Below, in pieces: positions 29,097-51,404 of a stretch of DNA of 64,000 nucleotides. The position numbers and the translations under genes are program-made. Below the pieces are notes generated by a model that was given only the letters and a program-made list of their open reading frames with translations, was not told where the DNA came from and made no database searches. How positions within the stretch are numbered: the first letter of the stretch is position 1; each line of letters opens with the position of its first letter. Source of the DNA: Pseudomonas nunensis (GTDB taxonomy: Bacteria > Pseudomonadota > Gammaproteobacteria > Pseudomonadales > Pseudomonadaceae); contig NZ_CP101125.1 in assembly GCF_024296925.1 (NCBI RefSeq), positions 4,218,501-4,282,500 on the forward strand, in the 5' to 3' direction.

Positions 29097-30059
29097 TCAA
29101 ACCAGACTCTCGTCGATCACCAACACCAACTTCCCCGCCACCGTATTACTCGCCAACTCCGCAAACGCCGCTTCGGCATCCTTGATCTTGAACGTCTTGG
29201 CCAATTGCGGCTTCAACCGCCCTTCCGCAAACAACGGCCACACATGCTGGCTCAGATCACTGAACACATCCGCCTTGAACTGATCATCACGGCTGCGCAA
29301 CGTCGAGCCCAGCAGTTGCACACGCTTGCCCAACACCTGCGCCAGATCCAGCTTCGCCTCACGGCCGCCCATCAAACCGATCAGCACCCAGCGACCATCC
29401 AGCGCCGTCAACTTGAGATTCAGCGCGGCGTAATTACCGCCCACCGGATCCAGGATCACATCGAACGGCCCCAGATCGCTCAAGCTCTCCACATCCCCGG
29501 TGCGCACCACCCCGCCCTGGGCTCCCAGAGCTTCACAGTAGGCCAAACGCTCGGCAGACCCGACGCTCACCCAGCACGGGTTGCCGAACGCCTTGCACAA
29601 CTGAATGGCGGCTGAACCGATTCCACTTGCCCCGGCGTGCAGCAGAACTTTCTCACCGGGTTTGAGGCCGGCCAGATGAAATAAATTTAACCAAACAGTC
29701 GCATACACTTCGGGCAACGCTGCCGCCTCGGCCAGCGACAAACCTTCGGGCACCGGCAGCACATGCCGTCCGTCGACAACCACTTCTTCGGCCATCCCGC
29801 CCCCGGCCAGCAAGGCGCAAACCCGGTCTCCCACCTGCCAGGACGAGCCCGCGCCGACCTCGCTGATCACCCCCGAACACTCTAGACCGAGCACCTGACT
29901 GGCTCCCGGCGGGGGCGGATAAAGGCCCGCCTTCTGTAACAAATCCGCGCGATTGAGACCCGCTGCCGCCACTCGAATGCGAACTTGTCCTACATCACAG
30001 GTAGGACTCGGCTCTTCAACCCACTCCACTTGACCGTCAACGCCTTGCAATGCTTTCAC
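29097..30059 (-). CDS. NADPH:quinone oxidoreductase (zinc-less MDR family)
   Basis: This 320-residue protein starts at GTG behind GGAGG. It is a medium-chain dehydrogenase/reductase of the quinone reductase branch: N-terminal catalytic domain with AAAGLNRADLLQKAGLYPPPPG and GLECSGVISEVG, then a Rossmann domain with HAGASGIGSAAIQL and FDVILDPVGG. Structural zinc cysteines are absent, as in zeta-crystallin-like proteins. It is divergent from prc, as in the P. aeruginosa locus (from memory). Confidence 0.92.
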   Translation of the reverse strand: MKALQGVDGQVEWVEEPSPTCDVGQVRIRVAAAGLNRADLLQKAGLYPPPPGASQVLGLECSGVISEVGAGSSWQVGDRVCALLAGGGMAEEVVVDGRHVLPVPEGLSLAEAAALPEVYATVWLNLFHLAGLKPGEKVLLHAGASGIGSAAIQLCKAFGNPCWVSVGSAERLAYCEALGAQGGVVRTGDVESLSDLGPFDVILDPVGGNYAALNLKLTALDGRWVLIGLMGGREAKLDLAQVLGKRVQLLGSTLRSRDDQFKADVFSDLSQHVWPLFAEGRLKPQLAKTFKIKDAEAAFAELASNTVAGKLVLVIDESLV

Positions 30060-30199
30060 AGTGCCTCCATAGTGAGTCTGGACTGAGCCCGTAGCGGTAG
30101 CGCCGGGCTTTCTTGCATTATGTGACCGGCCCTTTGTGGAACCGGCGACTTCAAAGACGGCCTAATATGCGTGATCAATTGTCCCCGCGTCGAATCAGC

Positions 30200-32281
30200 A
30201 TGAAGCAACTGTTTCCCAGCACCGCCCTAGCCCTATTTATTGGTATCGGCCTTTTGCCGATGTCGAGCAATTCGTTTGCAGCCAATAGCTGGGACAACCT
30301 TCAGCCTGATCGTGACGAAGTTATCGCCAGCCTGAACGTCGTCGAGCTGCTCAAGCGCCACCACTACAGCAAGCCGCCGCTCGATGATGCGCGCTCCGTG
30401 ATCATCTACGACAGCTACCTCAAGCTGCTGGATCCATCGCGCAGCTACTTCATGGCCAGCGACATTGCCGAATTCGACAAGTGGAAAACCCAGTTTGACG
30501 ACTTCCTCAAAAGCGGCGACCTGAACGCCGGGTTCACCATCTACAAGCGCTACCTGGACCGCGTCAAAGCGCGTCTGGACTTCGCCCTTGCAGAGCTGAA
30601 CAAAGGCGTCGACAAGATCGACTTCACCACCAAGGAAACCTTGCTGATCGATCGCAAGGATGCCCCGTGGCTCAAGTCCACCGCCGAACTCGACGACCTG
30701 TGGCGCAAACGCGTCAAGGACGAAGTCTTGCGGATGAAGATCGCCGGCAAGGATTCCAAGCAGATCCAGGAAACCCTGACCAAGCGCTACAAGAATCAGT
30801 TGTCGCGTCTGGACCAGACCCGTCCGGAAGATATCTTCCAGGCGTACATCAACACCTTCGCCATGTCCTACGACCCGCACACCAACTATCTGTCGCCGGA
30901 TAACGCGGAAAACTTCGACATCAACATGAGCCTGTCCCTCGAGGGCATCGGCGCTGTGTTGCAGAGCGATAACGATCAAGTGAAAGTCGTGCGTCTGGTG
31001 CCTGCTGGCCCGGCCGACAAGACCAAAATGGTGGCCCCGGCCGACAAGATCATCGGCGTGGCCCAGGCCAACAAAGAGATGGTCGACGTGGTCGGCTGGC
31101 GTCTGGACGAAGTGGTCAAGCTGATCCGTGGGCCGAAAGGCACCGTGGTGCGCCTGGAAGTGATTCCGGCCAGCAATGCGCCAAACGACCAGACCAGCAA
31201 AATCGTGCCGATCACCCGTGAAGCGGTGAAGCTTGAAGATCAGGCTGTGAAAAAGTCGGTCCTCAACCTGAAACAGGACGGCAAGGACTACAAGCTCGGC
31301 GTCATCGAGATCCCGGCCTTCTACCTGGACTTCAAGGCATTCCGTGCTGGCGATCCGGACTACAAGAGCACCACTCGCGACGTCAAGAAACTGCTGACCG
31401 AGTTGCAGAAAGACAAAGTTGACGGCGTGGTCATCGACTTGCGTAACAACGGTGGCGGTTCCTTGCAGGAAGCCACCGAGCTGACCAGTCTGTTCATCGA
31501 CAAAGGTCCGACCGTACTCGTGCGTAACGCCGATGGCCGGGTCGATGTGCTGGAAGATGAAAACCCGGGCGCGTTCTACAAAGGCCCGATGGCGTTGCTG
31601 GTCAACCGCTTGTCCGCCTCGGCTTCGGAGATCTTCGCCGGCGCCATGCAGGACTATCACCGCGCACTGATCATCGGCGGCCAGACCTTCGGTAAAGGCA
31701 CCGTGCAGACCATTCAGCCGCTGAACCATGGCGAACTGAAACTGACCCTGGCCAAGTTCTACCGGGTTTCCGGCCAGAGCACCCAGCATCAGGGCGTACT
31801 GCCGGATGTGGATTTCCCGTCGATCATCGACACCAAGGAAATCGGCGAAAGTGCCCTGCCGGAAGCCATGCCGTGGGACACCATCAAGGCCTCGATCAAA
31901 CCGGCGACCGACCCGTTCAAGCCGTACATCGCCGAGCTCAAATCCGAGCACGACGTACGTTCGGCCAAAGACGCGGAGTTCGTGTTCATCCGCGACAAGC
32001 TGGCGCTGGCCCAGAAGCTGATGGAAGAAAAAACCGTCAGCCTCAACGAAGCCGATCGTCGCAAGCAACATGCCGACATCGAAGCCAAGCAACTGGTCAT
32101 GGAAAACATCCGTCGCAAAGCCAAGGGCGAAGAACCGCTCAAAGAGCTGAAGAAAGAAGACGAAGATGCTATCGCGGCCGAGCCGGACAAAATCAAACCG
32201 GAAGACGATGCCTACCTGAGCGAAACCGGGCGGGTGTTGCTGGATTACCTGAAACTGAGTAACCAGGTAGCCAAGCACTAA
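30200..32281 (+). CDS. prc: Periplasmic tail-specific protease (Prc/AlgO)
   Basis: The ATG at 30200 gives 693 residues with a clean signal peptide (MKQLFPSTALALFIGIG...SFA); in-frame ATGs at 30167 and 30113 would lengthen the N-region and are less likely. After the N-terminal domain come a PDZ domain (about 230-330) and the S41 protease core with VDGVVIDLRNNGGGSLQEA, the SASASE stretch and GGQTFGKGTVQ. By spacing, the Ser/Lys dyad is probably S474/K499. The C-terminal helical DUF3340-type part is rich in Lys/Glu. In P. aeruginosa this protease (AlgO) affects the anti-sigma MucA and alginate. Confidence 0.95.
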   Translation: MKQLFPSTALALFIGIGLLPMSSNSFAANSWDNLQPDRDEVIASLNVVELLKRHHYSKPPLDDARSVIIYDSYLKLLDPSRSYFMASDIAEFDKWKTQFDDFLKSGDLNAGFTIYKRYLDRVKARLDFALAELNKGVDKIDFTTKETLLIDRKDAPWLKSTAELDDLWRKRVKDEVLRMKIAGKDSKQIQETLTKRYKNQLSRLDQTRPEDIFQAYINTFAMSYDPHTNYLSPDNAENFDINMSLSLEGIGAVLQSDNDQVKVVRLVPAGPADKTKMVAPADKIIGVAQANKEMVDVVGWRLDEVVKLIRGPKGTVVRLEVIPASNAPNDQTSKIVPITREAVKLEDQAVKKSVLNLKQDGKDYKLGVIEIPAFYLDFKAFRAGDPDYKSTTRDVKKLLTELQKDKVDGVVIDLRNNGGGSLQEATELTSLFIDKGPTVLVRNADGRVDVLEDENPGAFYKGPMALLVNRLSASASEIFAGAMQDYHRALIIGGQTFGKGTVQTIQPLNHGELKLTLAKFYRVSGQSTQHQGVLPDVDFPSIIDTKEIGESALPEAMPWDTIKASIKPATDPFKPYIAELKSEHDVRSAKDAEFVFIRDKLALAQKLMEEKTVSLNEADRRKQHADIEAKQLVMENIRRKAKGEEPLKELKKEDEDAIAAEPDKIKPEDDAYLSETGRVLLDYLKLSNQVAKH

Positions 32282-32346
32282 GATGATGGCAATTTAATGC
32301 TGACGCTCTCCGGAGCGTCATCAAACAGTCATCATTCTGTCGTGAA

Positions 32347-32400
32347 ATACAGGACTGGGAGCGCCTCTTGAATCAAGAGTCCGCTCCCAGTCCTTTTTTT
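32347..32400 (+). terminator. Strong terminator of prc
   Basis: AGGACTGGGAGCG pairs with CGCTCCCAGTCCT around a CTTGA-containing loop, followed by seven T residues. Transcription of the EAL gene should therefore start anew. Confidence 0.9.
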
Positions 32401-32416
32401 ATCGCCAGAGAACGCC

Positions 32417-34207
32417 ATGACCACGACCGAACAGCTGAGTGCCTTGAGTTCAATACTGGCTCAAAGCGGTTTGCACAGTCTGTTCCAGCCGATCATCTCC
32501 CTCTCTGAACGACGAATCGTCGGCTACGAAGCCCTCAGCCGTGGCCCCTCCAACAGCCCACTGCACTCCCCCATCGCCCTGTTCGCCGTGGCCCGTCAGG
32601 CCGGGCGCCTCAGCGAACTAGAAATCGCCTGCCGCCAAAGCGCCTGCCGCCGATTTAATGAACAGCAACTGCCGGGCAAGTTGTTCCTTAACGTATCGCC
32701 GGAATCCCTGCTCGAAACCTCGCACCAACCGGGCCGCACCCTGCAACTGCTACAGGACTTCGGCATCCCGCCAAGTCAGGTGGTGATCGAACTCACCGAA
32801 CAAACCCCGACCGATGATTTCCAACTCCTGCAAAACGCCCTGCATCACTACCGGGCGATGGGGTTTTCGATTGCACTGGACGACCTCGGCGCGGGCTATT
32901 CGAGTTTGCGGCTGTGGTCCGAACTACGGCCGGACTACGTCAAAATTGATCGGCACTTTATCGACGGCATCCACCAGGACGCGCTAAAACGCGAATTCGT
33001 CGGCTCGATCCTGCAAATAGCCAAAGCCTCACGCGCGCTAGTGATCGCCGAAGGCATCGAACTGCCGGAAGAACTCGCGATACTCACGGAAATGGGCGTC
33101 GACCTGGTGCAAGGCTATCTGCTCTGCCGCCCCCAGGAACATCCGCCACGGGATGCACGGGCGCTGATGCCCAAACAGGAAAGCACCGTGGTGGCGCTGA
33201 ACGACGAAGGCAGCGACCTCAGCGCCCTGCTCAACGACCAACCCGCCGTGGCCCGCGACACCCCGACCGCGACCGTACTCGAAGCCTTCCGCCGCCAAGC
33301 CAACCTGAACTCCCTGGCGGTGCTCGACGAACAAGGCCAACCGTGCGGCATCGTCCACCGCCACTCGCTCTCCGACGCCCTGCTCAAGCCCTTCGCCACC
33401 GACCTCTTCGCCCGCAAACCCATCAGCCGCCTGATGAACGACGACTTCCTCGCCGTCGAAATGAGCCAGTCCCTGCAACAAGTCAGCCGCCTCATCACCA
33501 GCCGCGCCCGACAACGCATCGAAGAAGACTTCATCATCACCCTCAACGGCAGCTACCTCGGGCTCGGCCGCGTCATCGACGTCCTCAAACTGATCACCGA
33601 ACTGAAAATCCAACAAGCCCGCTACGCCAACCCGCTCACCCTGCTCCCCGGCAACGTCCCCATCCAGCAATGCCTGACCCGCCTGCTACAACAAGCGCGG
33701 GAATCAGTGATCTGCTACGTCGACATCGACAGCTTCAAACCCTTTAACGATATCTATGGATATGGCCGTGGGGATGAAGTCCTACTGTGCTTGGCGCAGT
33801 GTCTGAATGACCGCGTAGATCCATCCCGCGACTTCGTAGGACATATCGGTGGGGATGACTTTTTGCTGGTGCTTGGGCCGGAGGATTGGCGCAAACGTTT
33901 GAACCAGTTGCTGGATGATTTTCATAGCCAGTGCCGACGGTTCTATCGCGCTGAACATCTTGAGGCGGGGTGCTTCATCGCGCCGAATCGCCAGGGCGTA
34001 AGGCAGGAATTTCCACTGCTTTCACTGTCCATCGGCGTGGTGCATCTGCACCCCGAGGCCTGTGGACAACTCGATGCAAGCCAGTTGGCAGAGATGGCGT
34101 CACAAGCCAAACATCACGCGAAGAACGTGCCGGGGTATAGCGTGCATGTGATTGATAGCCTTGCGGTGCCGGCGACAGAAAACACACTAATCGCCGGCCA
34201 TCGCTGA
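32417..34207 (+). CDS. EAL-CBS-GGDEF cyclic-di-GMP signalling protein
   Basis: The 596-residue cytoplasmic protein begins with a phosphodiesterase-type EAL domain (residues 15-250: E38-A-L, LNVSPESLLE, IELTEQTP, DDLGAGYSSL, VKIDRHFI, EGIE), followed by a CBS pair (about 275-405) and a C-terminal GGDEF domain (about 420-590) whose active-site motif is GGDDF (478-482). The EAL residues for hydrolysis look intact; the variant GGDDF may still bind or make c-di-GMP. Unusually, EAL precedes GGDEF. No membrane segment is present. Confidence 0.93.
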   Translation: MTTTEQLSALSSILAQSGLHSLFQPIISLSERRIVGYEALSRGPSNSPLHSPIALFAVARQAGRLSELEIACRQSACRRFNEQQLPGKLFLNVSPESLLETSHQPGRTLQLLQDFGIPPSQVVIELTEQTPTDDFQLLQNALHHYRAMGFSIALDDLGAGYSSLRLWSELRPDYVKIDRHFIDGIHQDALKREFVGSILQIAKASRALVIAEGIELPEELAILTEMGVDLVQGYLLCRPQEHPPRDARALMPKQESTVVALNDEGSDLSALLNDQPAVARDTPTATVLEAFRRQANLNSLAVLDEQGQPCGIVHRHSLSDALLKPFATDLFARKPISRLMNDDFLAVEMSQSLQQVSRLITSRARQRIEEDFIITLNGSYLGLGRVIDVLKLITELKIQQARYANPLTLLPGNVPIQQCLTRLLQQARESVICYVDIDSFKPFNDIYGYGRGDEVLLCLAQCLNDRVDPSRDFVGHIGGDDFLLVLGPEDWRKRLNQLLDDFHSQCRRFYRAEHLEAGCFIAPNRQGVRQEFPLLSLSIGVVHLHPEACGQLDASQLAEMASQAKHHAKNVPGYSVHVIDSLAVPATENTLIAGHR

Positions 34208-34475: not shown

Positions 34476-34799
34476 CTACTCCGAAGGCATCGCCCGCAAC
34501 CGCCGCCCCAACACACCCAACACATCACACCCATCCCGCAACGGAATGGCACACAGCAACGCAAAGTCACTGAGGATGAAGGACTCACACTCAATCGACC
34601 CACGCATGGACATATTCTCCAGCACCTGAGTTACCGCGCGAATTCGATAATTGGCAGCGTCATACAAAACATCAAGCGGCGCATGGGTATCGACGAACAA
34701 GGTCGGCATGTCATCGCAATTGCTGGTGAGCGCCATGAAGCGGCTTTTGGGATAGGGAGTTGGTTTTTCGTAGGGTGGGTCGGGGTGAAGTGTTGGCAT
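34476..34799 (-). CDS. DUF3077-like small protein
   Basis: The ATG at 34799 (MPTLHPDPPYEKPTPYPKSR) lies behind CTGGAG and gives 107 residues; the longer frame from 34982 runs through a terminator-like hairpin and is rejected. The N-terminal half is polar, and the C-terminal half (LFVDTHAPLDVLYDAANYRIRAVTQVLE... and CDVLGVLGRRLRA) resembles the small DUF3077/DUF6124 proteins that occur in several copies in fluorescent pseudomonads. The function is unknown. A structured leader precedes it. Confidence 0.7.
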   Translation of the reverse strand: MPTLHPDPPYEKPTPYPKSRFMALTSNCDDMPTLFVDTHAPLDVLYDAANYRIRAVTQVLENMSMRGSIECESFILSDFALLCAIPLRDGCDVLGVLGRRLRAMPSE

Positions 34800-34824
34800 T
34801 TTTAGAACTCCAGGAAAAATAGGA

Positions 34825-34860
34825 GCTGCCAGATGCCTTCCTACAGGCATGGGTGGCAGC
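34825..34860 (-). terminator. Hairpin with U-run in the leader of the DUF3077-like gene
   Basis: On the minus strand GCTGCCA and ATGCCT pair with AGGCAT and TGGCAGC, leaving a 6-nt loop, then TCCTATTTTT, only 15-20 nt before the ribosome site. It could be an attenuator, or the end of a short RNA transcribed from about 35050. Confidence 0.55.
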
Positions 34861-35266
34861 CATACGCGGGGTAGGAATATCGAGCCCCAGAGACACTCGA
34901 CCACACCGAAGCGTGCCCGCGCACAGCCGCCGCGACGGATTTTACGGATGCAATTCAGCAGCCGCAAATCAGAAGGCGACACTAATGCAGTCTTTGGGAG
35001 ATTGAAGGGTTCCTACACCCTGTCACTGACTATGCAGCGACCACCAAAGCCTACCGATTGAACCCAACGCGCACCAGTTCACCAAAACCGCCGCGACGTG
35101 AAGGAAATTTCCGAAGACCTTGCCCAGAAATTTCGTTCACCAAAGCAAACGCCGAGGAAGGTTGCTTGAAGCCTAGCCTGATTTAAACAATCACCGGGTG
35201 ACCACTTTCAACCCTGAAGTGGTCCTTGGTTAAATCGCCTGCTTCGCATCGAAAACGCTTTATTGG
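34861..35266. other. Intergenic region at the left edge of the accessory island
   Basis: These 406 bases carry no credible gene. The left part (to about 35040) looks like a transcribed leader of the DUF3077-like gene. The right part is AT-richer and carries a hairpin after the CHAT gene (35200-35224) and a 12-bp direct repeat TTGGTTAAATCG at 35226-35237 and 35263-35274, the second copy overlapping the CHAT stop codon. Confidence 0.55.
35200..35224 (-). terminator. Possible terminator of the CHAT gene
   Basis: GACCACTT/AAGTGGTC inverted repeat with a 9-nt loop, 43 bases past the CHAT stop. There is no T-run immediately after it. Confidence 0.4.
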
Positions 35267-36370
35267 TTAAATCGAAGGAGGGCGAACAAGTATTAGTAAA
35301 TTTTCGTCCAGATCATCCTGCAGGTAGAGCTCAGGGATGTCTTCCTCTCCAGGCACTTCCATAGACACCAACGCTTTGGCTTGCTGAAAAGCCTTTGGTA
35401 TGGACAGTCCAAATCCAATCGCTGAATAGAACTGTGCAGAGAAGACGCGGGCGGGCAAATCGCCAACATCCCTGTTCATGCCGATAGTTGCAGGAACATG
35501 CTTTAGGCAGCCCTGAGCCTGATTGAACGAAAAACACGTATTGAAAAATACTAGTTTCACGCTTTCGGCTCCGAGAGCCATGGCACTAACAATGGCTTCC
35601 TTCGTGACATGCTTTTCCATCCCTTGATCATCCTGCAACACAAGCATGTCGGCATCAGTGCCATGACCGCTAAAATGTACGATGCTTGGTTGGAGTTCGT
35701 TAATAGCCTGAAGCACGTCCCTTGGTCTAACTGCCCAGCGAGTATGAAAGACTACTGAGTCTCGGTGCTCGGACGCTCGAATACGCTCACCTATTAGACG
35801 GGCCTCTTCATCAAGAGCTAACTTGGTTACAGAGTTGCTGCCCGGATCCGCAGCAAAAAATACTACTGTGATTGTTTCTGGAAGAGCTTTCAGGCGCCCA
35901 ATCTCAATAGCCGTCTGAGCGTGGAGGCTTTCGTGTCTAGATAAACCTGCCCCCAAATTCTGCATCCTCCGATCCTGTTCCCGCGCAGTGCGTTGTTGAT
36001 CGGCCAAAAGCTTCTTCTCTTCTTTCATGCGCTTGGTTTGAGCAGCGTCCAACCGCTTGCGTTCTTTCGCCACTTCATCGTCGAGACGACGCTGGGCAGT
36101 GACAATCTTGTTTTGTTCATCGGCAATTTTCTTCTCGATCTTGCCAACTTCGATCTGAGCTTTAGCTTGCTCGTCTGCATAGCGGACTGCCTCTTTCTGT
36201 TTCGAAATTGCTGTCGAAACTGAAGATGCTCGAGCGGCAGAGGCCACGGCATCTGAACTTCGCTTACCGGCTTTCGCAGCCGCTTCGACCTTCTTAGATT
36301 TATCGCCTTGGAGTTTGGCGATGTTCTTCTGGATGCTTGCCACTTGGTTGCGATACTGATCGACGCTCAA
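35267..36370 (-). CDS. CHAT-domain (caspase-like) protease with N-terminal coiled coil
   Basis: The 367-residue protein starts at a TTG preceded by AAAGGGAT. Residues 1-145 are charged, alanine-rich heptads (KSKKVEAAAKAGKRSS, QIEVGKIEKKIADEQNKI, AKERKRLDAAQTKRMKEEKK), clearly coiled coil. Residues 160-365 form a CHAT peptidase domain: TVVFFAADPGS strand, IVHFSGHGTD with catalytic His236, and LVFFNTCFSF with catalytic Cys279. The domain ends with SIPKAFQQAKAL and a final strand. No signal peptide or membrane segment is present. CHAT proteases act as death or defence effectors, cleaving partner proteins after activation. It is divergent from a membrane-protein cassette and lies in lower-GC DNA. 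Confidence 0.88.
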   Translation of the reverse strand: MSVDQYRNQVASIQKNIAKLQGDKSKKVEAAAKAGKRSSDAVASAARASSVSTAISKQKEAVRYADEQAKAQIEVGKIEKKIADEQNKIVTAQRRLDDEVAKERKRLDAAQTKRMKEEKKLLADQQRTAREQDRRMQNLGAGLSRHESLHAQTAIEIGRLKALPETITVVFFAADPGSNSVTKLALDEEARLIGERIRASEHRDSVVFHTRWAVRPRDVLQAINELQPSIVHFSGHGTDADMLVLQDDQGMEKHVTKEAIVSAMALGAESVKLVFFNTCFSFNQAQGCLKHVPATIGMNRDVGDLPARVFSAQFYSAIGFGLSIPKAFQQAKALVSMEVPGEEDIPELYLQDDLDENLLILVRPPSI

Positions 36371-36423
36371 GATAAATCCCTTTTTGGCAATAGTGCGAAA
36401 TGGCTACTATACCCCGATCCACT

Positions 36424-36446
36424 CAGGAGTAGGATGTCGACTCCTG
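36424..36446. promoter_or_regulatory. Inverted repeat in CHAT/TM-cassette divergent promoter
   Basis: CAGGAGT and ACTCCTG, 9 bp apart, centred in the 107-bp gap between the divergent starts. It could be an operator shared by both sides. Confidence 0.35.
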
Positions 36447-36477
36447 CAAACCACTTTGGACGAGATTGCACCTCACA

Positions 36478-36972
36478 ATGGACGAAACCATTTCATATTT
36501 GAAAGACCGCTTTAAGGAAGAGCAAGCTCGCTTTGATCAGATCGAAAATAAAAGCGCCAAATTTTTCACCGCAGTGTCTATCCTGATTGCGGGGCTAAGC
36601 GCATTGGCTAGCATGAAGAATGGAGTTCTTTTCCAGCTCCGCTCTCCCCTTTCGGTCATCACTTTTTTAGCATTTGCTATAGCCGCAGCGGCCATAGCGT
36701 GTGCATGGGCACACGCTTTAAGCTCACTGAGCATTAAGGCCTATCCTAACCTTCCCTCAAATCGAGAAACAGCAGAGTATCTAAAGGCAGTGGACGAAGA
36801 AGGTTACCAAGTACATCTGTACAACTGCTACACCGACACGCTTGAGCTACTTAAGGCGTCGATCGATGAAAAATCCAAACCGCTGAGCCTCGCTTATGGA
36901 GAGATTACTATCGCAGCAGGTGCCTTCGCGCTGCTTGTTGTATTCATTATCATCAGGGAGTTAACCGCATGA
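36478..36972 (+). CDS. Three-TM small membrane protein of the CHAT cassette
   Basis: The ATG at 36478 gives 164 residues. An N-terminal amphipathic helix (1-28, ending IENKSAKFF) leads into TM1 (29-46) and TM2 (58-80); a soluble helical insert of about 60 residues follows, and TM3 (143-160) begins after a second, similar motif (IDEKSKPLSLAYG). The layout recalls the small membrane effectors of nucleotide-signal defence systems (SLATT, Pycsar-TM/DUF5706), but I cannot assign it to one. It overlaps the next gene by four bases (ATGA). Confidence 0.75.
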   Translation: MDETISYLKDRFKEEQARFDQIENKSAKFFTAVSILIAGLSALASMKNGVLFQLRSPLSVITFLAFAIAAAAIACAWAHALSSLSIKAYPNLPSNRETAEYLKAVDEEGYQVHLYNCYTDTLELLKASIDEKSKPLSLAYGEITIAAGAFALLVVFIIIRELTA

Positions 36973-37097
36973 CAGATGAGCAGAAACCGAAGAGCAGTGA
37001 GCAGACCCGAACACCGCCACCGCCTCCCACCACTGAGTACCAACGACGATCCAAGGAGCCTCCGCTTAGCCAGCAAGATCGAACTGAGAGGCGGTGA
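36969..37097 (+). CDS. Proline-rich microprotein (42 aa), translationally coupled
   Basis: An ATGA overlap with the preceding stop opens a 42-codon frame: MTDEQKPKSSEQTRTPPPPP, then a basic tail ending QQDRTERR. It is disordered, with five successive prolines and no hydrophobic core. The four-base overlap argues that it is translated, as coupled genes are; composition alone would not support it. A role as linker, antitoxin or adaptor is speculation. Confidence 0.5.
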   Translation: MTDEQKPKSSEQTRTPPPPPTTEYQRRSKEPPLSQQDRTERR

Positions 37098-37188
37098 TAT
37101 TTGAGCGAAAAGGTGGCGGATTTATTTCCCCTCCTTTTTTGAAATCAAATCCGTCTCCTTTTTCCTACTTTCAATCGAAAGGATTCAA

Positions 37189-37857
37189 ATGACATTAACA
37201 ACTGCTCAATGGACGGCAATTATTGCGGCATGCGGCGTCGCAGCACAGTTCCTTATTGCCTATCTGGGTCGACGCCAGATCATGAAGCAACTTGATCTTC
37301 AGCATTTGGTCTCCCATCGCACAACGGCGTCTTTCATTGCGGACAAACGCCAGAAGTGGATCGATGAACTGCGCACAGATATGGCATTTCATCTGGCCCT
37401 TTCGCAGGAGATCGTCTGGAAATGGGACGGTATGCGTGACCGAGCGGCAATCCGAATTCAGAAGGAAGCCACAGACGCGGCTGGGAAAACCAACCAAACG
37501 AAGGCTAATCAAATTTTGCAGAATGCTGCCGATGCCTTCTCGCCAGAGAACGGTGCACGCGACCGCGAACATCAAGAACGACATATCCGGATCATGTTCC
37601 GGCTCAATCCAAATAAAGACTTACACATAAAGCTTCGCAAGTGCCTTTATGCTATCCGTACCGCGCTGAATAATACCCAAAGTGCAAACACCGTGGCCGA
37701 AACAAAGACGCTGCTTGAAGAAACGATTCGCTTGGTTAGCGAAGCTCAGGGCTACACAGAAGCTATACTTAAGGCCGAGTGGCAACGACTGAAGCAGGAG
37801 GTTGCCTATCCTGAGACGCTAATGGCGACGATCCCTAAGCCCGAGCCGAAAAAGTAA
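37189..37857 (+). CDS. One-TM protein with cytoplasmic helical domain, CHAT cassette
   Basis: The ATG at 37189 follows AAAGGA. A membrane segment (about residues 9-27) is followed by RRQIMKQLDLQHLVS and a KRQKWIDELRTDMAFHLALSQ stretch, a pattern seen in many small membrane-anchored proteins of accessory islands. The remaining 150 residues are helical and highly charged, ending in PKPEPKK. I recognise no catalytic motif. It is co-directional with the three-TM gene, 91 bp after the microprotein, so it is likely part of one transcript. Confidence 0.75.
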   Translation: MTLTTAQWTAIIAACGVAAQFLIAYLGRRQIMKQLDLQHLVSHRTTASFIADKRQKWIDELRTDMAFHLALSQEIVWKWDGMRDRAAIRIQKEATDAAGKTNQTKANQILQNAADAFSPENGARDREHQERHIRIMFRLNPNKDLHIKLRKCLYAIRTALNNTQSANTVAETKTLLEETIRLVSEAQGYTEAILKAEWQRLKQEVAYPETLMATIPKPEPKK

Positions 37858-38049
37858 CGGGAGTTCGTTTGTGGAGGCTCAGCACGAATGATTCTGACTG
37901 CATACGAGATCTCCGGAGATCGGAGGGGTCGCTTGAGAAGGGGCGTAGCACCTAAGTAAAGGTTACTGAGGCGAGGTACATGGCTGCATCAGATAAATAA
38001 GCCAATGATTCGCTTTCTTAGAGATTAATTCTACGAATAGTTTCGTTAT

Positions 38050-38127
38050 GATCAGGGTACCCTACAGGCAGGCCTGAGGCGCTTAGCGCCTCAGGCGCTT
38101 GGAGCTGAAGTTGTTCCTACCCTGATC
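38050..38127. repeat. Nested inverted repeat (cruciform-like)
   Basis: Outer arms GATCAGGGTA (38050-38059) and TACCCTGATC (38118-38127) enclose an inner perfect hairpin CCTGAGGCGC-TTA-GCGCCTCAGG (38073-38095) and a 24-bp segment also found at 43639. The element has no homology to the three REP families here. Confidence 0.7.
38094..38117 (+). repeat. 24-bp direct repeat, copy 1
   Basis: Begins GGCGCTTGGAG and ends GTTGTTCC. It is identical over 24 bases to 43639-43662, in the same orientation. See findings. Confidence 0.85.
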
Positions 38128-38157
38128 TTTGACCCCGTCAATCTTTATATTGCAGAT

Positions 38158-38190
38158 ACAAAAACCGGCCAAGAATGACCGGTTTATTAA
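38158..38190 (-). terminator. Terminator of the nucleotidyltransferase pair
   Basis: AAACCGG/CCGGTTT stem; on the minus strand it is followed by TTTTTG, 15 bases past the stop at 38206. Confidence 0.7.
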
Positions 38191-38205
38191 TGAACATTCT
38201 ACCGC

Positions 38206-38643
38206 TCAAGCCAGATGCATTTGTCTCTGGGTGGCTTCGAAATGCCTCGTCTGATAAGGCATCAATGCCTGAACCTTCAGGCCCAAACCCTTTTCAAGCC
38301 CCCAAGATAGTGCTAGACGGTCAACACGACCTTTCGCAACGACATCATTCTGCTTGTGAAAAACAACAAGATTTAACGCACGATTAGCCTCAGAAACTCG
38401 AGAGTCTGTAGCGCAGGTAAATTGGGTCAAACGCTCAAACAGATACCCTGCACGCCTAACCTCAACATCGCTACGGTGCTTACGTAAAAACGAATTCAAT
38501 GCAGTTTCAAGGTTAGCAGTCGAATACCAAAACGCACGAGCAACTCGCACCAAGACAGCGTCATCCGCTTGATCGAGGGGTTGCTTCGCCAGTCGTTCCA
38601 ATTCAGTCGAGAGGACGGTGGCGCTATGGCGCTTCGTCATCAT
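38206..38643 (-). CDS. Small partner protein of the nucleotidyltransferase-fold gene
   Basis: Starting at 38643 (MMTKRHSATVLSTELERLAKQP) or the adjacent ATG at 38640, it encodes about 145 residues of soluble, helical protein (ADDAVLVRVARAFWYST, ETALNSFLRKHRSDVEVRRAGYL). I recognise no family. The start lies about 20 bases inside the preceding gene, so the two are translated as a pair, which is the usual organisation of toxin-antitoxin modules. Confidence 0.7.
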   Translation of the reverse strand: MMTKRHSATVLSTELERLAKQPLDQADDAVLVRVARAFWYSTANLETALNSFLRKHRSDVEVRRAGYLFERLTQFTCATDSRVSEANRALNLVVFHKQNDVVAKGRVDRLALSWGLEKGLGLKVQALMPYQTRHFEATQRQMHLA

Positions 38644-39265
38644 CGTTAGTCTCCAGATAATCCGCAATAATGCGCTTGAGGATTGAGTATGGTGGTTCCT
38701 TGTTGCCAACGTACACATCAATAGCTTGTAAAGCCAGTCGATTCAGATCTGTGGTCAAGATTAGCCCCATCCGTAGCAGCTTTTCAATATCTTCGATGTC
38801 TTGATCGGTAGCGCGCCCGAGCTTTGAGATAGCCAAATCCAATGGGGCAGCAATCCAAATGTGAATTGGAGAGGCTTCGTCAAATTCTTCAAGACGAATC
38901 GCACGTTCGAGATAATCCTCATGCAACGGCCCAAGCGTCGTGTTGAAGGTAAGATCATAGTTCAAGGCTAGAGTTCGCCCTGTAGGATCGATGAACGACT
39001 CTGGTGTCGCCCCCAGGCTTTCAATGAGTTCAGCCTTGCTCAGAGAGCGATCACAATGAAAAATTTCGCCGTCAATATCCACTGAAACACGGTGATGGGT
39101 ATACAGGTGTACCGCGACACCGCCAAAGATAATGATTTTCACTGACCCTGACGGGTACCCGTCAAGCTCCTCCTGGACGCCTTTGAACATTGCCACGACT
39201 GCCTGTCCGAGCGGCTTGCTGGTATCAACGATGGCGGGAAGCACATCTGGAACTTCTACGGGCAT
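38624..39265 (-). CDS. Nucleotidyltransferase-fold protein (DUF6036/AbiEii-like)
   Basis: The ATG at 39265 is preceded by AGGGAGGGG and gives 213 residues; an upstream ATG at 39301 lacks such a site. The motif GGVAVHLYTHHRVSVDID (residues 48-65) is the GG...DxD core of minimal nucleotidyltransferases related to AbiEii/DUF1814 and DUF6036. A later APLDLAISKLGRATDQDIEDI segment matches the helix following the third acidic region in such proteins. Enzymes of this kind act as toxins that modify tRNA, or are inactive partners. It overlaps the small gene downstream. Confidence 0.8.
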   Translation of the reverse strand: MPVEVPDVLPAIVDTSKPLGQAVVAMFKGVQEELDGYPSGSVKIIIFGGVAVHLYTHHRVSVDIDGEIFHCDRSLSKAELIESLGATPESFIDPTGRTLALNYDLTFNTTLGPLHEDYLERAIRLEEFDEASPIHIWIAAPLDLAISKLGRATDQDIEDIEKLLRMGLILTTDLNRLALQAIDVYVGNKEPPYSILKRIIADYLETNDDDEAP

Positions 39266-39591
39266 AGGGTCCCCTCCCTGGAGGTACCAATTGAGCTTCA
39301 TACGAGGACTGACATTGCAAATCAGTGACTCGTGTACTGATGTGGAACGACAGTAACTGAATAGACGCAGGCTTCATAGACACTATGAGCATGGACTATT
39401 AGTCATTCGACCTTTACCACCAGCGCCAGCTTTTGGCCGATTGCTGCCGGTCCTAAATGGCCTCAATCAGTCCAAAGCGTCATCCCAAGCAGCTGAACCA
39501 ACAAGCTTCACTTGGCGCGACAGCGATTCCGGCGACAACCTTGGTGTCCACCGGCAATACCTAAATGCTAACCGTAAATAAAATAGTTCTT
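39266..39591. other. Intergenic region at the right edge of the accessory island
   Basis: These 326 bases have no credible gene. A TTTTGGCCGATTGCTGCCGG stretch (39430-39450) is the only recognisable extragenic motif. No clear terminator for the convergent-side hydrolase is seen. Confidence 0.45.
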
Positions 39592-48550: not shown

Positions 48551-48627
48551 TGGCGCAGCGGACGGGACTCGAACCCGCGACCCCCGGCGTGACAGGCCGG
48601 TATTCTAACCGACTGAACTACCGCTGC
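48551..48627 (-). tRNA. tRNA-Asp (GTC), copy 1
   Basis: A 77-nt cloverleaf with acceptor GCAGCGG/CCGCTGC, D-loop AGTCGGTTAG, anticodon loop CTGTCAC (GTC), T-arm GCGGGTTCGAGTCCCGT, and encoded CCA. Confidence 0.95.
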
Positions 48628-48641
48628 GCGTAGCGTGAAAG

Positions 48642-48717
48642 TGGTGGGTGATGACGGGATCGAACCGCCGACATTCTGCTTGTAAGGCAGACGCTCTCCC
48701 AGCTGAGCTAATCACCC
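48642..48717 (-). tRNA. tRNA-Val (TAC), copy 1
   Basis: A 76-nt cloverleaf with acceptor GGGTGAT/ATCACCC, anticodon loop CTTACAA (TAC), T-arm GGCGGTTCGATCCCGTC and encoded CCA. It is transcribed just upstream of tRNA-Asp. Confidence 0.95.
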
Positions 48718-48849
48718 TTTACCTTCGTTGCGGGGCGCATTGTGCCACAGATTTTCATAAAGTGTTGATTTAATTGAATATTTTTTCAAATAAATCTGAA
48801 AACCGGTGAAACGACACGACCTGCGGGAACAACGTACAAACTTGAGGCA

Positions 48850-48878
48850 GAAAAAAACCCGCGTGAGCGGGCTTTTCC
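48850..48878 (-). terminator. Terminator of the proximal tRNA pair
   Basis: GCCCGC-TCAC-GCGGG then TTTTTTT on the minus strand, between the two tRNA pairs. Confidence 0.8.
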
Positions 48879-48916
48879 GTGGTGACCTGGCGTTCAGCAT
48901 TCCAGGTTACCGAATA

Positions 48917-48993
48917 TGGCGCAGCGGACGGGACTCGAACCCGCGACCCCCGGCGTGACAGGCCGGTATTCTAACCGACTGAACTACCGCTGC
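48917..48993 (-). tRNA. tRNA-Asp (GTC), copy 2
   Basis: Identical in sequence to the copy at 48551-48627. Confidence 0.95.
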
Positions 48994-49012
48994 GCGTAAC
49001 ACTAAGAACGAA

Positions 49013-49088
49013 TGGTGGGTGATGACGGGATCGAACCGCCGACATTCTGCTTGTAAGGCAGACGCTCTCCCAGCTGAGCTAATCACCC
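49013..49088 (-). tRNA. tRNA-Val (TAC), copy 2
   Basis: Identical to the copy at 48642-48717. The pair plus its flank is a direct duplication of about 140 bp. Confidence 0.95.
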
Positions 49089-51285: not shown

Positions 51286-51332
51286 GCGCCAAACTTGATC
51301 CCCGGGTTAAGGATTGGCACTCTATGGCGCAA

Positions 51333-51383
51333 CGCGAGGACGACCTCGCGGCTCGATCGAGTCATTAATCTGGGGACGACCCC
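51333..51383 (+). promoter_or_regulatory. Guanidine-II riboswitch (mini-ykkC)
   Basis: Two hairpins with identical ACGA tetraloops: CGCGAGG-ACGA-CCTCGCG (51333-51350) and GGGG-ACGA-CCCC (51372-51383), spaced by about 20 nt and ending 10 nt before the GGAGG ribosome site of sugE (51394-51398). Tandem ACGR-loop hairpins in front of a SugE/Gdx gene define this riboswitch class. Guanidine binding should dock the two loops and free the ribosome site. Confidence 0.92.
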
Positions 51384-51404
51384 GTCAATCGATGGAGGTC
51401 TTTC

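Follow-up and report, generated by a model that had tools for sequence, protein, structure and literature searches.

CHAT proteases and membrane effectors are already known in bacterial defence, and several described systems each resemble a part of the locus analysed here. These include SAVED-CHAT of type III CRISPR (PDB 8TL0); Craspase (type III-E), in which TPR-CHAT is paired with Csx30; the SLATT effectors, described as predicted pore formers (PMC7159879); the PADLOC phage-defence candidate PDC-S66; Septu, with PtuA and PtuB; the phage protein family phrog_23273, to which no function is assigned; and two-gene toxin-antitoxin systems. The present locus lies in a 64,000-nt stretch of Pseudomonas nunensis DNA (contig NZ_CP101125.1, positions 4,218,501 to 4,282,500; the window) and contains a divergent pair of genes, 107 bp apart, for a CHAT-type cysteine protease and a transmembrane (TM) protein, the latter followed by the gene of a proline-rich microprotein (Table 1). 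Judged from sequence conservation, these three genes are the conserved unit. We tentatively read them, with a confidence slightly short of even, as a mobile abortive-infection-type cassette in which the CHAT protease, switched on via its N-terminal domain, would cleave the microprotein or the TM protein and thereby release a membrane effector. A preliminary description of this DNA had stated that no described system with this exact layout was known to it, and none was found in a PADLOC scan or in the open-licence literature searched; joining the two to a near-obligate microprotein, like the free-standing module described below, appears to be new at this search depth.

Table 1. Features of the CHAT/TM locus and its surroundings (window coordinates; aa, amino acids)
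Feature	Position	Strand	Remarks
Predicted CHAT cysteine protease	35267..36370	-	367 aa, TTG start
CHAT domain, residues ~162-367	35267..35887	-	Pfam, structure model
His236 codon	35663..35665	-	alignment of relatives
Cys279 codon	35534..35536	-	alignment of relatives
N-terminal helical hairpin/coiled-coil domain, residues ~1-145	35936..36370	-	structure model, profile matches
Divergent intergenic region	36371..36477		107 bp, holds 7-bp inverted repeat
TM protein	36478..36972	+	164 aa; resembles phrog_23273 and, weakly, SLATT_1; three hydrophobic helices
Pro-rich microprotein	36969..37097	+	42 aa; ATGA overlap with TM stop; EYQR conserved, residues 23-26
Strong hairpin behind microprotein gene	37108..37162	+	z -4.4; 0/200 shuffles as stable
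222-aa protein	37189..37857	+	one hydrophobic stretch (9-27); in island, outside conserved unit
Approximate insertion missing from relative G005	34802..39587		alignment to G005

The protease had been described as a CHAT peptidase with a TTG start, a His236/Cys279 pair and a long N-terminal coiled coil, and all of these features were upheld. The catalytic pair is kept in 64 of 64 aligned relatives, so that its loss in most relatives, which the preliminary description had named as evidence against its reading, was not seen. The AlphaFold2 model (mean predicted local distance difference test score, pLDDT, 88) has a caspase-type alpha/beta domain after two long N-terminal helices (3-47 and 51-161). 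The protein scores 21.7 bits with the Pfam CHAT model (PF12770), below the cutoff of 24, and many of its relatives do carry the Pfam CHAT annotation; at E <= 1, Pfam returned CHAT and a weak IAT_beta match, and nothing else. From its sequence and model, we regard it as an intact CHAT-type protease with predicted activity. The family has at least 2585 relatives among 7999 scored candidates and is spread over many phyla; no match was found in phage records, and none of 27 pattern matches in viral contigs proved to be a relative. The nearest solved fold is SAVED-CHAT, but the window protein has the helical hairpin instead of the SAVED sensor, the match to the 8TL0 profile being confined to the CHAT part and no SAVED domain being found by Pfam at E <= 1. 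It also differs from TPR-CHAT, since Pfam gives no TPR match and the N-terminus is modelled as two long helices; moreover, unlike in Craspase, the protease gene adjoins genes for a membrane protein and for a microprotein. A gasdermin match was not found in the nine open reading frames (ORFs) scanned, the neighbour here being a helical TM protein.

The TM protein has hydrophobic stretches at residues 28-46, 58-76 and 141-159, in agreement with the three-TM protein described earlier, and is modelled with four helices (2-48, 57-85, 96-104 and 107-163; pLDDT 91). Its start is most likely the ATG at 36478, because aligned relatives start there, and with this start the reported divergence across 107 bp holds. 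A nearly full-length match links it to phrog_23273 (E 3e-12), as it does all four TM relatives compared, whereas no CHAT was found beside the viral-contig members of that family that were examined. SLATT_1 is weakly matched by 15 of the 18 TM proteins, with E 2.7e-4 at best; in contrast to SLATT effectors, the window protein has three hydrophobic helices and a coupled microprotein. The PADLOC scan yielded weak matches only (best E 0.018). The protein contains a conserved stretch, PxLPSxR, after the second helix, and the proportions of nonsynonymous and synonymous differences (pN and pS) in its gene are 0.21 and 0.77. It matched neither phage records nor any of 228 other genomes of the class.

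The microprotein ORF, MTDEQKPKSSEQTRTPPPPPTTEYQRRSKEPPLSQQDRTERR, comprises 42 codons and overlaps the TM stop codon, as had been proposed. It represents a real gene, because pN is lower than pS in 45 of 45 pairwise comparisons among ten loci (means 0.24 and 0.80). From its position, the microprotein is most likely translationally coupled to the TM protein; it is probably disordered, and the PADLOC scan gave no match to it. A small ORF overlaps the TM stop in all 11 loci checked first, and overlaps it or nearly so (-3 to +6) in more distant TM relatives, namely L154, L117 (G360), the small Acinetobacter plasmids L157 and L158 and seven viral-contig loci. When near-copies are counted once (L159/L160 with L117, L163 with L162 and L165 with L154), 18 of the 19 distinct TM loci have a small gene at this place, and among them are prophages and plasmids in which no CHAT gene is adjacent; it was not found in L155. 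In L154, a record from P. luteola, phage tail and baseplate genes flank the pair on either side, and of the 10 plasmid records that matched the L117 TM protein, H33 and H40 were looked at (H39 being the record of H32). In a background set of 320 genes, chosen greedily with an overlap rule that dropped the L107 and L110 TM genes, a small ORF with at least 15% proline occurs at this place in 12, nine of which are TM-family genes. The composition of the small protein differs among loci (acidic with 7% proline in L164, 11% proline in L161). The motif EYxR is kept in the 11 first-checked loci and L154, and is missing from the small proteins of L117, L157, L158, L161, L162 and L164. Because the microprotein persists where CHAT is not adjacent, it is tied to the TM protein and not to the protease, and the pair, as judged from these sequences, is a module of its own. 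Since the pair also travels alone in prophages, the locus probably represents a mobile anti-virus module that has gained a protease as its trigger. In the Acinetobacter plasmids, two microprotein-like ORFs lie in tandem behind the TM relatives (L158:778-978 and L157:2000-2371).

The pairing of CHAT with TM is real within Pseudomonas. Among 398 genomes, CHAT matches (E <= 1e-10) were found in 12, and strong TM matches in nine, with a weak one in G360. TM is present in eight of the 12 CHAT genomes and in one of the 386 others (P 3e-13), or, when intact CHATs only are considered, in 7/9 and 2/389 (P 4e-12); both P values ignore kinship, which lessens their weight for a linked cassette. One of the eight shared genomes (G083) retains only CHAT remnants, and G058 and G225 carry CHAT fragments. 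The divergent layout recurs in five relatives with gaps of 101-149 bp, and is kept between CHATs that are only 38% identical (L009/L109; gap of L109, 118 bp). By eye, 9 of 39 TM protein clusters have a longest-contig size identical to that of one of the 120 CHAT clusters listed. When 42 CHATs were placed in a tree, the eight TM-linked ones required at least two label changes, and the L109/L110 pair sits on a long branch (1.94). Beside an intact TM and microprotein in L112, a CHAT remnant adjoins an ABC-3C system gene (CTD2, E 2.8e-75; L112:5182-7137).

A four-gene cassette, including a one-TM coiled-coil protein, had been proposed in the preliminary description. The 222-aa protein concerned does have one hydrophobic stretch, but its gene is not conserved with CHAT, TM and the microprotein, and is therefore placed outside the unit. 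It matched in three of the 398 genomes, strongly in the window's own and in G226 only (81%), the G065 match being weak (59 residues at 37%). The G226 copy begins 169 bases into a 7.3-kb contig, with the upstream side not visible. No match was obtained by tblastn of phages and plasmids. The four-gene system was thus rejected, a strong relative being present in only 1 of 397 other Pseudomonas genomes. The 222-aa gene lies behind the strong hairpin that follows the microprotein gene and is likely a terminator or attenuator.

The N-terminal hairpin of the protease also occurs on other effectors. The first ~115 CHAT residues match the start of the Septu-type PtuA in L014 and L015 (62 and 72 bits), whereas 4000 shuffles, full or heptad-phase, reached 21.2 at most; a further PtuA relative, encoded in G190 without an adjacent CHAT, scored 23 bits, barely more than the highest shuffle. 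In the PADLOC scan, residues 1-134 matched the N-terminus of PDC-S66 (E 2.5e-13). The match stops there: CHAT follows in the window protein, whereas the C-terminal half of PDC-S66 differs and matches other Pseudomonas proteins, which look to us like TIR proteins. The likeness to Septu consists of a PtuA N-terminus homologous to that of CHAT within the same cassette, but PtuA was not found in the window's own genome (G000) at E <= 1e-20. In L014 and L015, PtuA/PtuB genes stand directly behind TM and the microprotein (L014:2946-5152 and L015:2940-5146). A broader proposal, which we consider rather unlikely as a whole, is that TM and the microprotein form an undescribed, prophage- and plasmid-borne module of membrane effector and microprotein inhibitor, placed in a Pseudomonas group under a separase-like CHAT that cuts the microprotein at EYxR and frees the effector, with the hairpin as a plug-in sensor that PtuA and PDC-S66 effectors would share. 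If it is true, the hairpin common to CHAT, PtuA and PDC-S66 would offer one handle on the triggering of several orphan effectors.

A protease with an adaptor/sensor hairpin, together with a divergent membrane protein and its coupled partner, points to a triggered membrane effector, for which we infer the trigger, substrate, topology, microprotein role and membrane effect as follows. The first module would be a cytosolic CHAT cysteine protease with the helical hairpin as its adaptor or sensor; the second would be the self-standing pair of three-helix membrane protein and coupled microprotein, the latter most likely keeping the TM protein inactive or docking to it. A Pseudomonas group keeps the two side by side in divergent orientation. 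An infection cue, acting via the N-terminal domain, would render CHAT active, and the active protease would cut either the microprotein, whose E23-Y24-Q25-R26 resembles the separase motif ExxR, or the cytosolic part of the TM protein; the freed membrane protein would then damage the membrane and stop phage production. According to PMC9729208, CHAT substrates are often encoded close to the protease, and the same and two further reports (PMC6858450, PMC12609080) state that separase, a structural relative of CHAT, cleaves after ExxR. By this analogy, the microprotein EYxR is suggestive only as a separase-like cleavage site. If true, the mechanism would give bacteria a compact way of killing through the membrane in which a protease releases the effector, no gasdermin takes part and a 42-residue protein is the switch; it would also put a name to a membrane/microprotein module, carried by prophages and plasmids, that is undescribed in the libraries and papers searched.

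The nature of the microprotein bears on this scheme. A small gene coupled to that of a candidate toxin, as in two-gene toxin-antitoxin systems, is present here, toxicity being predicted. It is nevertheless conceivable, if unlikely, that the microprotein does not inhibit the TM protein but serves its structure or assembly (e.g. as a scaffold needed for its activity), with CHAT cutting the cytosolic part of the TM protein, a model that overlaps the linked one. The near-obligate pairing (18 of 19 distinct loci) while the sequence drifts, as far as the acidic protein of L164, and the conserved PxLPSxR of the TM protein would suit such a partner; on the other hand, a small, coupled, charged protein adjoining a candidate membrane toxin has the typical appearance of an inhibitor.

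Several observations weigh against the linked cassette. In prophage loci, plasmids, G223 and G360, no CHAT lies next to TM and the microprotein, which indicates that CHAT is not needed for their function; profiles of the CHAT domain and of the N-terminal domain found no match in 14 TM loci without adjacent CHAT (near-copies included, and the plasmid stretches being short). EYxR persists in the CHAT-less L147, L154 and G223, and hence is not necessarily cleaved; ExxR is also common, being present in ~20% of yeast proteins according to PMC12609080, and TPR-CHAT, as given in PMC9729208, cuts Csx30 after L407, without the separase P1 residue. The window TM protein scores only 18.3 bits with NCBIfam SLATT_1 (cutoff 41). 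Within Pseudomonas, CHAT is intact but TM is missing in G108 and G311, and for 34 of the 42 CHATs in the tree, the available flank contains no TM gene (less than 200 bp upstream in L030 and L040); CHAT homologues regularly without the membrane genes, which the preliminary description had held to count against it, are thus found at family level. The absence of TM from most CHATs, the CHAT-less pairs and the presence of CHAT in other settings (in L027 and L033, for instance, it overlaps a type I specificity gene at its end) would all be accommodated by two independent defence or exclusion modules that share the island and the divergent promoter region. TM and the microprotein would then be a pair of phage origin, acting in exclusion or as toxin and antitoxin, and CHAT would have other targets. 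The strong co-occurrence in Pseudomonas and the same divergent layout, kept at 38% CHAT identity, argue against this alternative, which we consider possible but somewhat improbable.

The low-GC stretch around the locus is an insertion of foreign DNA relative to G005. This genome aligns to window positions 30001-34172 (89.8%) and, after an interval of 384 bp, resumes at 39588 (83%); the left edge was set at ~34802 from small G005 matches at 34521-34574 and 34728-34801. The call rests on this one relative, G007 being aligned over the right-hand flanking gene alone, a gene found at E <= 1e-80 in 3 of 14 genomes, the window's own included. The lower guanine-plus-cytosine (GC) content and rare codons described earlier were confirmed, with GC at 0.48-0.53 over 35-40 kb compared with ~0.60, and a codon adaptation index of 0.37-0.49 for five island genes compared with a mean of 0.658 (standard deviation 0.075) for 40 other window genes. 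The surroundings of CHAT relatives support a defence setting: among 102 neighbouring proteins scanned, there were three each of N6_Mtase, Methylase_S, Abi_C and reverse transcriptase, two GmrSD, one each of BrxL, PglZ, AbiJ and Sir2, and four integrase cores (rve), counts that are descriptive, with no matched background set of genes, and lend the cassette correspondingly less support. BrxL and PglZ genes lie ahead of CHAT in L035. In L027 and L033, two planctomycete records, the type I restriction specificity gene (L027:4625-5989 and L033:4868-5998) is the one whose end overlaps the CHAT ORF. A stress or envelope-quality system instead of defence seems very improbable. It would find some encouragement in the weak matches of 3 of 18 TM proteins to the phage-shock envelope protein PspM (best E 0.017), but the sporadic presence (12 of 398 genomes), the insertion, the foreign composition, the remnants in G058, G083 and G225 and the defence-type neighbours all speak against it.

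The intergenic region contains GCTACTATACC, seen by eye in three relatives too. The inverted repeat noted previously does exist as one exact 7-bp pair (36424-36446; the pattern was written after seeing the repeat), but it was not seen by eye between the CHAT and TM genes of the three nearest relatives, and it was rejected as a conserved operator. No repeats of at least 8 nt were found in the intergenic DNA, and promoter and terminator consensus scans gave matches no more often than in shuffles. At the left edge of the insertion lies a C4 antisense RNA (RF01695, 53.3 bits; 34849-34937, minus strand), which was rejected as a part of the system, having no match in the 21 other loci scanned. Further along the island, a DUF6036 nucleotidyltransferase gene (E 4.9e-13) overlaps a 171-aa ORF with a weak match to OloA (E 4e-4) at 38206-39301 on the minus strand, possibly a second defence pair. 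Elsewhere in the window are two tRNA-Asp/tRNA-Val pairs in tandem (48551-49088, minus strand) and a Guanidine-II riboswitch (51332-51384, plus strand; 42.4 bits).
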